DNA from: Fimbriimonas ginsengisoli Gsoil 348 | Lineage (GTDB): Bacteria; Armatimonadota; Fimbriimonadia; Fimbriimonadales; Fimbriimonadaceae | DNA: 64,000 nt | Direction: 5' to 3' | Assembly: GCF_000724625.1 (NCBI RefSeq) | Contig: NZ_CP007139.1 | Location: forward strand, 5,022,001-5,086,000 | In this document: positions 23,947 to 59,046 of the stretch, in pieces | Layout: the number at the start of each line of letters is the position of its first letter | How positions within the stretch are numbered: the first letter of the stretch is position 1 | Made by a program: the position numbers and the translations under genes | Notes under the pieces: model-generated | Databases searched by the model: none | What the model saw: the letters and a program-made list of their open reading frames with translations, nothing else | What the model was told of the DNA's origin: nothing

Positions 23947-23992
23947 AGTGTTAGGCGTTAGGCGTTAGGCGTTAAGGCGTTGGGCGTTAACC
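23947..23992 (-). repeat. Degenerate heptamer/octamer repeat GCGTTAG/GCGTTGG
   Basis: About six GCGTTAGG/GCGTTGGGC units follow directly on the livF stop. They are in the opposite orientation to the perfect array at 24026, so the two can pair into a long imperfect hairpin across a gap of about 35 bases. Confidence 0.8.
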
Positions 23993-24025
23993 TTGAGGTA
24001 ACTGTTTTCTGCTAATCGAAGACTT

Positions 24026-24109
24026 CCCAACGCCCAACGCCCAACGCCCAACGCCCAACGCCCAACGCCCAACGCCCAACGCCCAACGCCCAACGCCCAA
24101 CGCCCAACG
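24026..24109 (+). repeat. Heptamer tandem array, 12 perfect copies of CCCAACG
   Basis: Twelve uninterrupted 7-base units end five bases before the rimI ATG at 24115. It is the same unit as at 1345 and 58008. No Shine-Dalgarno can exist between the array and the start codon. Confidence 0.97.
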
Positions 24110-24114
24110 CCAGC

Positions 24115-24588
24115 ATGCTCTCCACTCTCCGCTTCGAACCGATCCAGGAGGCGCATATCCCCGCGATCCTTGCGATCGAAGGGCGAACGAACACGGCGCC
24201 GTGGTCGGAGCGTAGCTTCCGGAACGAGCTGGATCACCCGCACGGGATCTTTCTCGTCGCGATCCTTTCCGGCGAAGTGATCGGTTACGGCGGCATTTGG
24301 CTCGTCATCGACGAGGCCCACGTCACCACCATCGCCGTCGCCCAGGAGCATCAACGAAAAGGAATCGGCGAAAAGCTAATGGTCGAGCTGCTTCGCCGGG
24401 GACAGGAGAAAGGAATGCTCTGCTCCACCCTGGAAGTTCGAGCCGGCAACGACCCCGCGATCAAGCTTTACGAGAAATTGGGCTTCACCATTTCCGCCCG
24501 CCGGAAAGGGTACTACCCCGACAACCGCGAAGACGCCATCGTGATGTGGCTGTACGACTTGGAGCACTGGGAGCCTCCCCGGGCGTGA
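24115..24588 (+). CDS. rimI: Ribosomal protein bS18-alanine N-acetyltransferase
   Basis: This GNAT-fold acetyltransferase of 157 residues is predicted to acetylate the N-terminal Ala of ribosomal protein S18, or related N-termini. The acetyl-CoA loop is EHQRKGIGEKLM, preceded by VTTIAVAQ. The C-terminal VRAGNDPAIKLYEKLGFTIS and RRKGYYPDNREDAIVM match the RimI pattern, including the conserved Tyr. The stop overlaps the tsaD start as GTGA; rimI-tsaD adjacency is common in bacteria. The heptamer array ends five bases upstream of the start, so translation must begin without a normal ribosome site or from a leaderless message. Confidence 0.92.
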   Translation: MLSTLRFEPIQEAHIPAILAIEGRTNTAPWSERSFRNELDHPHGIFLVAILSGEVIGYGGIWLVIDEAHVTTIAVAQEHQRKGIGEKLMVELLRRGQEKGMLCSTLEVRAGNDPAIKLYEKLGFTISARRKGYYPDNREDAIVMWLYDLEHWEPPRA

Positions 24589-43186: not shown

Positions 43187-43717
43187 CTAGAGCCCACCGG
43201 GACCACGGCCCGGTCCACCGGGACGTCCGCCTGGGCCTCCAGGGCCGCCGCGGCCACCGCCCATCTTGGCGCGCATTTCTTTGCGGAGGTCGTCGTACTT
43301 CTTCTTCTGATCCGGCTTGAGAACGCTTTCGACCGACTTTCGATAGTCCTGACTGATCGGACGGAACTGGCTGAAGAGGGCCCGAGGATCGCCGCCCTTG
43401 GGCGCGGTGGTCATCAGCTTCTTCATCTTCGCGTCTCGAGCCGCTTGGAATCCTTTGATCTTCTTCTTCTGATCGGCGGTGAGGTTCAGCTTAGCGAACA
43501 TGTCCGCTTCCATCTTGGCCATCCGCGCGCGGCGCTCGCCAAATCCGCCGGGACCACCAGGTCCTCCGGGGCCTCCAAATCCGCCAGGACGACCAGGACC
43601 GCCTGGGCGGCCTTGGCCGGGGGCGCCGCCCTTGGGGCCGGGCCCCTGAGCGAACGATGCCGAAACGAGACCGAACGCGGCCGCGGCGATAGTAAGGGTG
43701 AGAAGCAGCTTCTTCAT
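43187..43717 (-). CDS. Secreted Gly/Pro-rich LTXXQ (Spy/CpxP-like) protein
   Basis: This is a 176-residue exported protein. A signal peptide ends at ASFAQ. Residues about 25-60 and 150-176 are collagen-like runs rich in GGPGGP/GRPGG. The central part (about 62-145) is a basic helical domain with LNLTADQKKKIKGF, the LTxxQ signature, repeated in a weaker form as VLKPDQKKKYDDLRK. This is the Spy/CpxP periplasmic chaperone type. The flanking Gly/Pro runs are unusual and probably disordered. A terminator follows at 43037. Confidence 0.82.
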   Translation of the reverse strand: MKKLLLTLTIAAAAFGLVSASFAQGPGPKGGAPGQGRPGGPGRPGGFGGPGGPGGPGGFGERRARMAKMEADMFAKLNLTADQKKKIKGFQAARDAKMKKLMTTAPKGGDPRALFSQFRPISQDYRKSVESVLKPDQKKKYDDLRKEMRAKMGGGRGGPGGPGGRPGGPGRGPGGL

Positions 43718-58007: not shown

Positions 58008-58042
58008 GGCGTTGGGCGTTGGGCGTTGGGCGTTGAGGCGTT
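58008..58042 (-). repeat. Heptamer array upstream of trpD
   Basis: About four units of the same heptamer as at 1345 and 24026, reading CGCCCAA on the trpD coding strand, flanked by one degenerate unit on each side. It lies about 45 bases from the ATG at 57962 and about 10 bases from the alternative GTG at 57998. Confidence 0.9.
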
Positions 58043-58173
58043 ATGCGTGAAGCGCAGAGCGTGAAGGAAAGAGTAATGCATCAAGCTTTCAACGCCTCAA
58101 CGCCTTCCCCTGATCCCTTCTGCTCGATAACAACTGTACCGATGCCCCACTTGCTTCCCGAGTAAAATGAAGC

Positions 58174-59046
58174 ATGCCCAGATTGGTGTGGTTGAACGGT
58201 CAGGTGATGCCTCTCGAGAATGCGACGACCAGCGTCGCGGATCACGCGCACCTTTACGGTGACGGACTATTCGAAGGGATCCGCATCTATGACCGCAAGG
58301 TCTTCAAGCTGGACGAGCACCTTCGGCGGCTTTACCATGGCATTTCCTATCTTGGATACGAGATGCACATCGGTTTCGACGAGCTGCGCGCGACGGTGCT
58401 GGACGTCTGCCGGCAAGCGGATATCGAGGCGGGCTACATTCGGCTCAACGTTACGCGCGGAACCGGCCTCGGCCTCGACCCGAAGAATATCAACCGAACG
58501 CCAAATGTGATGGTTATGGTCTCCACGCTGTCGCTCTATCCGGAGGACGCGTACGAGATCGGCCTGCATGTGGTGACTTGCTCGCTCAAGGTCATTCCCG
58601 CCGATGTTTTGGACCCGCGCGTGAAGTGCATCGGACGATACGCGAGCAACATCCTCGCCAAGCAGGAAGCGAACCGAGCGGGCGCGGGCGAGGGGCTCAT
58701 GTTGAACCAGCAGGGGCATATCGCCGAGTGCACCGGAGATAATGTGTTCCTCGTCAACGGACGTCACATCCGCACGCCGCATCCGGCTTCCGGCATCCTT
58801 CAGGGGATCACCCGCGACACCGTCATCATGCTGGCGCGAGAGGCGGGCTACACGGTGGAGGAGACTTTCCTTACCCCGTACGACGTCTTCTCAGCGGACG
58901 AGGCGTTCCTTACCGGCACGGCGGCCGAAGTGATCGCGATGGTCAGTCTCGACAGCAAGAAGATCGGTTGCGGTACGCCCGGAGAAGTCACGCTCGACCT
59001 TATGGGACGCTTCCGAGCTCATACGGCGACCGGCGTACCGTTCTAA
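58174..59046 (+). CDS. ilvE: Branched-chain amino acid aminotransferase
   Basis: IlvE moves amino groups between glutamate and the 2-oxo acids of Leu, Ile and Val, using PLP. The 290-residue class IV aminotransferase has ADHAHLYGDGLFEGIRIY at the N-terminus, the PLP Lys in PRVKCIGRYASNILAK, ECTGDNVFLVNG, GILQGITRDTVI and FLTGTAAEVIAM. It starts at ATG 58174, divergent from trpD. The mcsA-like gene begins at the next base, so the two share a transcript. Class IV enzymes also include D-amino acid and 4-amino-4-deoxychorismate types, but the motifs favour IlvE. Confidence 0.92.
   Translation: MPRLVWLNGQVMPLENATTSVADHAHLYGDGLFEGIRIYDRKVFKLDEHLRRLYHGISYLGYEMHIGFDELRATVLDVCRQADIEAGYIRLNVTRGTGLGLDPKNINRTPNVMVMVSTLSLYPEDAYEIGLHVVTCSLKVIPADVLDPRVKCIGRYASNILAKQEANRAGAGEGLMLNQQGHIAECTGDNVFLVNGRHIRTPHPASGILQGITRDTVIMLAREAGYTVEETFLTPYDVFSADEAFLTGTAAEVIAMVSLDSKKIGCGTPGEVTLDLMGRFRAHTATGVPF

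Follow-up and report, generated by a model that had tools for sequence, protein, structure and literature searches.

The window, a stretch of 64 kb, lies in the genome of the soil bacterium Fimbriimonas ginsengisoli Gsoil 348, which is a single contig of 5,231,762 bp. Three heptamer arrays had been reported in it, and TRF recovered all of them, at 1344–1380 (5.3 units, 100%), 24026–24111 (12.3 units, 100%) and 58008–58042 (4.9 units, 96%). With at most one mismatch, CGCCCAACGCCCAA had 16 matches, vs. 0.07 expected from shuffling; the three arrays exist as described and far exceed what chance would give. The names given to the adjoining genes were correct by domain: a nucleotidyltransferase gene with an NTP_transferase domain (1400–2140), a rimI-like GNAT acetyltransferase gene (24115–24588, forward strand), and trpD (57998–56949), with two anthranilate phosphoribosyltransferase-type domains. 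An ABC-ATPase gene precedes rimI, and a class IV aminotransferase gene (ilvE) at 58174 diverges from trpD. The trpD array sits between these divergent genes and therefore also precedes the aminotransferase gene, at a distance of ~130 bp and in the opposite reading. The lack of a Shine–Dalgarno (SD) sequence before the array genes, which had also been pointed out, is weak evidence because SD-like tetramers at −18 to −5 precede just 29% of the confident genes in a genome sample (11% in a control window); many genes in this sample thus have no visible SD. Known RNA families had no match in the window at the gathering threshold. A 36-bp unit rich in CC and GG (CCAAATCCGCCAGGACCACCAGGACCGCCGGGGCCT) occurs twice at 43539–43608 and probably encodes a proline/glycine repeat.

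Two of the arrays, those of rimI and trpD, are faced by partner arms of the opposite strand, which the sequence-only reading had overlooked. At rimI, GGCGTT units face AACGCC units across a 40-bp spacer. The G-rich arm, (GGCGTTA/AA/G) × 5 with GTTAGGC-type units, occupies 23950–23990 (+) and starts 4 bp past the stop codon of the ABC-ATPase gene. It is followed by the 40-bp conserved core of family 2 (23989–24028; the element is oriented on the minus strand) and by the C-rich arm, a perfect (AACGCCC) × 12 at 24026–24111 (+), which is the array reported earlier and ends 3 bp before the ATG. Read in the orientation of the element, it constitutes the G-arm, and that this family 2 copy points at rimI is happenstance.

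Between trpD and ilvE, the element begins with a G-rich arm, (GGCGTTG) × 5, at 58008–58042 (+), which reads CGCCCAA towards trpD. It continues with an inner left segment, GCGTGAAGCGCAGAGCGTGA (58046–58065, +), which is common to the subfamily at 899, 1016, and 3688 kb, then with a conserved core of family 1 (GGAAAGAGTAATGCATCAAGCTT; 58066–58088, +), and ends in a short C-rich arm, (TCAACGCC) × 2 / TCAACGCCTCAACGCC, at 58089–58105 (+), which faces the trpD array. Before the nucleotidyltransferase gene, an outer repeat, GGACTGTGGCGTGTGGC (1244–1260, +), lies ahead of a degenerate family 1 core (AAAGAGGTAAAGCCTCAAACTAA; 1319–1341, +; R1, 16.8 bits, E 0.05) and a C-rich arm composed of (AACGCCC) × 5 and then octamers, CAACACCG × 2.5 (1344–1396, +). 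With one mismatch allowed, the outer repeat has 14 dispersed copies in the genome, namely the one in the window and 13 others, and some of them adjoin family 1 elements. This third element has no GGCGTT partner arm on its left and no stable fold; its RNA fold was no better than shuffled (z −0.28). RNA of the rimI and trpD elements formed hairpins that were far more stable than those of shuffled sequences, with z-scores of −6.55 and −3.57.

Composition and dispersal of the element

The G-rich arms were composed of (GGCGTT + 1–2 purines)n and the C-rich arms of the complementary (AACGCC + 1–2 pyrimidines)n. The part common to all arms was GGCGTT/AACGCC, and the feature that was kept was the complementarity of the two arms. 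In family 1, the linkers were side-specific, almost all G in the left arm and mostly TC or TT in the right arm; GGGCGTT heptamers made up nearly all of the left arms, and octamers (AACGCCTC or AACGCCTT) most of the right arms.

The spacers between the arms formed a conserved core that belonged to two families, of 26 bp (family 1) and 40 bp (family 2). The consensus of family 1 was GGGAAAGGGTAAAGCAnnAAGCTAGC, in which GGTA and GC were nearly invariant, and that of family 2 was GGGA.AGAGCCT..TTAGCAGGACAGAGTTA..TC.GGGTT. At E < 0.01, arm-free spacer profiles matched 12 places for family 1 and 6 for family 2 in the sampled DNA, and the reversed sequence gave no match. The training set supplied most of these matches; the new ones included the copy at 4664113 and further copies whose arms were unlike. 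Sequence models run over the whole genome at E ≤ 0.5 found about 36 places for family 1 and 10 for family 2, of which the weakest, near the threshold, are uncertain. These places were scattered round the chromosome, and most of the matches inspected adjoined arms. Copies of the element stand at no fewer than about 40 places, most of them intergenic. In 60 relatives, which are other genomes of the family, the models of both families had no match at E ≤ 0.01, and in a search of six genomes the sole core matches outside were single and weak (E 0.04–0.43).

Individual copies were closely related. The trpD/ilvE element (core with inner arms) was identical to the copies at 899 and 1016 kb at 61/64 and 60/64 positions, respectively; the rimI element, compared over core and arms, agreed with the 531-kb copy at 79/89. 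Their local scores were 113 (trpD/ilvE) and 124 (rimI), vs. control maxima of 26 and 37 from random 350-bp stretches. Identical 20-base core segments were found at two or three loci each. In two groups of three copies with identical cores, the 440-bp flanks were unrelated (6 copies; scores 17–31). Beside ten recent copies, inspection of the neighboring genes by eye showed no transposase and no common theme.

Copies with identical cores differed in the lengths of their arms. In one group, the left arms had 2, 3, and 6 units and the right arms 16, 8, and 9; in the other, the left arms had 4, 3, and 6 units and the right arms 7, 11, and 3. The earlier statement that the copy number of the arrays varies thus holds in the within-genome sense. 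Right arms of family 1 ranged from 0 to 18 units and left arms of family 2 from 1 to 12. Long arms consisted of unmixed units, and the mixed right arms of family 2 stayed at 1–5 units, presumably because slippage acts on homogeneous units.

Some loci had one arm only, and a convergent arm pair in leuS enclosed a spacer unlike that of family 1; arms can therefore occur without the known cores. The leuS pair (genome 4827966–4828023) consists of two-unit arms that lie in frame in a variable loop of leucyl-tRNA synthetase. In the same loop, genome G017 has GATCAGC- and AATCCAA-type short repeats, and genome G055 has nonamers. The pair was considered as an insertion with clean boundaries and rejected: because the loop varies in length family-wide and the loops of the same genus are about as long, no end of an insertion can be read. 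Nonamer arrays of the ATGGGACGA type, convergent with their complement, were nested inside GGCGTT arms in the gaps at 3074768, 3454493, and 592757.

Placement of the arrays relative to genes

Placement statistics covered 1.264 Mb (24% of the genome), comprising two stretches and the window, besides the searches of the whole genome. An array was defined as at least two GGCGTT cores spaced 7–8 bases. The genes in this sample were called with a simple hexamer scorer and their start positions are approximate; polarity and convergence of the arrays hold nonetheless, because neither depends on start positions. The sample contained 46 GGCGTT-type arrays; rearrangements of these six letters averaged 2.1, and the three permutations that reached 21–26 did so because they overlap the same GGCGTT arrays. 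Forty-one of the 46 were intergenic. Neighboring arrays less than 250 bp apart were convergent (G-rich arm, spacer, C-rich arm) in 16 cases, tandem in two and divergent in none. When single GGCGTT cores were accepted as partners, the divergent class rose to 14 cases, which lone GGCGTT words would lead one to expect.

The sequence-only reading had named enrichment of the arrays in 5′ leaders as support for its view. In the 1.264 Mb, 25 of the 41 intergenic arrays were closer to a stop codon and 16 to a start codon, vs. 21.0 ± 2.4 near starts for random positions in the same gaps, and such enrichment was not supported. The distance to the stop was mostly 0–20 bp and that to the start mostly 14–86 bp. 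The gaps that held arrays were distributed over the gene orientations ++, −−, −+, and +− as 9, 6, 6, and 5 (5.6, 6.9, 8.0, and 5.5 expected by length), with no clear excess of any orientation in this sample.

The G-rich strand led away from the nearest gene in 37/41 intergenic arrays (binomial p = 1e-7; the true p is larger because arrays of one pair are not independent). The fixed orientation noticed in the window is therefore non-random. It is not specific to starts: the rule is symmetrical, applies equally at stops and comes from the convergent pairing of two arms. The coding strand reads CGCCCAA because an inverted-repeat element fills the intergenic gap, and an inverted repeat can be viewed in several equivalent ways, of which a C-rich leader on the sense strand is one.

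Interpretation and alternative explanations

We consider it likely that the arrays are single arms of small, dispersed inverted-repeat elements, non-autonomous hairpins with slippage-prone satellite arms that come close to the small dispersed repeats (SDRs) of Nostoc and the paired G-rich heptamers of Xanthomonas. The arms converge, the cores are conserved, the loci are unrelated, arm lengths differ between copies with identical cores, and gene starts are not preferred. The unit probably spread as a mobile hairpin without an enzyme of its own. The reverse-complementary arms constitute terminal inverted repeats like those of MITEs; a non-systematic look found no parent element. Transposition is inferred from dispersal; inspection by eye at 38 loci recognized no target-site duplication. 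Once in place, the arms would gain and lose units through polymerase slippage, most of all where they consist of pure GGGCGTT heptamers or of AACGCCTC/AACGCCTT octamers. If a copy affects rimI, the nucleotidyltransferase gene or trpD, through an RNA hairpin or through spacing, this would be a side effect of the landing site and not the work of a dedicated control device; an effect on rimI is possible but would be incidental. The elements are presumably, in the main, tolerated extragenic passengers, whose effects on flanking genes would be local accidents. Arrays of heptamers between bacterial genes are usually taken for quadruplexes or for switches that work by slippage. An element with a conserved core accounts for the orientation, spread and length variation of the arrays without a regulatory role, and the presence in one genome of copies with identical cores and different arm lengths makes the origin and growth of the arms directly testable.

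The SDRs of Nostoc punctiforme (Elhai et al., 2008) are reportedly dispersed elements of ~21–27 bp, often embedded in tandem heptamers, confined to one lineage and, by that account, recently mobile. The layout of a core within heptamers matches this description, and the family 1 core is similar, with 26 positions and flanking arms of 7- and 8-mers, whereas the family 2 core (40 bp) is longer than the SDR range. In addition, the heptamer tracts in Fimbriimonas are reverse complements that face each other, so that core and arms form one hairpin. A literature search on the heptamer unit itself found nothing relevant.

An alternative is that the (GGGCGTT)n strand forms a G-quadruplex that acts on transcription or replication, a role that has been proposed for the Xanthomonas GGGAATC and Nostoc GGGGATT repeats. 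The passages of Rehm et al. (2015, PMC4692102) on the Xanthomonas GGGAATC and Nostoc GGGGA(T/C)T repeats describe seven-base G-rich units, mostly intergenic and in 2 to 26 copies, with 70–75 convergent heptamer pairs per genome in Xanthomonas. The G-rich strand of these repeats lies antisense <50 bp upstream of ORFs or sense <50 bp past stops. The placement and pairing of the Fimbriimonas arrays match those of the Xanthomonas GGGAATC repeats closely: they are intergenic, dispersed and convergently paired, and their G-rich strand is antisense near starts and sense near stops. In addition, (GGGCGTT)4 fits the G3-N4 pattern. However, four GGG tracts were present in just 11/46 arrays, and arms with the linkers A, AA, or GA contain no GGG. 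The Fimbriimonas unit is GGCGTT with a variable linker that gives 7- and 8-mers, what is kept is the complementarity of the arms, and its spacer has the form of a core, conserved and dispersed, of which those passages describe none. A quadruplex is thus an improbable explanation of the arrays.

Transcription terminators, or hairpins that protect 3′ ends after genes, would agree with the closest placement, 0–20 bp past stop codons, and RNA from either strand of an element can fold with the G-rich arm 5′ and the C-rich arm 3′. However, four consecutive T within the next 12 bases were found for 3/38 elements on one strand and 0/38 on the other, and convergent genes showed no excess of arrays between them (5 vs. 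5.5 expected by length). Intrinsic terminators were rejected on the rarity of the T run, and a role at 3′ ends in general seems unlikely.

A different history of the arms was also considered, in which it is the core that moves and the arms, instead of being inherited, arise afresh wherever it inserts, through template switching or the action of some uncharacterized polymerase. The same core was found with GGCGTT/AACGCC arms and with other arms, TCACGCC (3191644), GAACGCTCC (5013189), and AACACCGC (1839793). We regard this history as doubtful.

The explanation offered by the sequence-only reading was that sense arrays ahead of genes are slippage-tuned elements of the 5′ leader, which adjust translation or the spacing of promoters. 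In its favor are the three cases in the window, among them the C-rich arm that ends just before the ATG of rimI, the variation of arm length among copies, and the TAACTGA repeats of marine Beggiatoaceae, which cluster in sense just before starts (MacGregor, 2015, PMC4679880). Both types are abundant intergenic heptamers with a patchy distribution over phyla. However, the TAACTGA repeats are direct, most of them stand in sense immediately ahead of starts, and inverted pairs are almost absent, whereas the Fimbriimonas arrays showed no enrichment before starts and abutted stops more closely. The polarity rule is valid at stops too, and the genes beside the ten copies lacked a common theme. A dedicated leader function is therefore very unlikely; the earlier interpretation was borne out for copy number within the genome and not for placement at gene starts.

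Equally little weight was given to the possibility that the elements are REP/REPIN sequences whose movement depends on the genome's own RAYT (Y1) transposases. The genome has 13 Y1_Tnp matches; its authors found only 12 transposase genes (PMC4072686). REPINs, or REP doublets with RAYT (Bertels and Rainey, 2011, PMC3116915), resemble the present elements as dispersed, non-autonomous, extragenic inverted doublets with a spacer that form hairpins. The Fimbriimonas arms differ from them as tandem satellites of variable length without RAYT linkage: of the 13 Y1 genes, 10 were inspected and none was flanked by element arms, which led us to reject movement by RAYT. The RAYT genes are flanked by other palindromes, and the core has no GTAG-headed palindrome. 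A separate GTAG-headed palindrome, GTAGCATCGGCACCCTGCCGATG, recurs between genes, a variant of it flanks one Y1 transposase gene, and it is probably a true REP of this genome. Integron attC sites were rejected as well, since the unit GTTRRRY/RYYYAAC matches attC core sites but the arm order is reversed (GTTRRRY ... RYYYAAC vs. RYYYAAC ... GTTRRRY); no integron integrase (IntI) scored above the cut-off.

Similar arrays in other genomes

At least 120 stretches from GTDB genomes of many phyla contained exact (CGCCCAA)4, and Limnohabitans and Verrucomicrobiota were well represented among the matches listed. Because the same array type occurs in so many phyla, the element type may reach beyond Armatimonadota. 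Two genomes of the same family, G006 and G017, had the same heptamer plus other short repeats. A shared core was not evident in the Limnohabitans arrays. In several Limnohabitans gaps, GTTCAGCG-type units directly followed the stop, and the next start was preceded by AACGCTC/AACGCCC units. One gap with the same upstream gene in two species held such an element in both, with different unit make-up. In some Verrucomicrobiota/Spartobacteria, the AACGCC and GGCGTT arms pointed outward, which is the reverse of the arrangement in Fimbriimonas.
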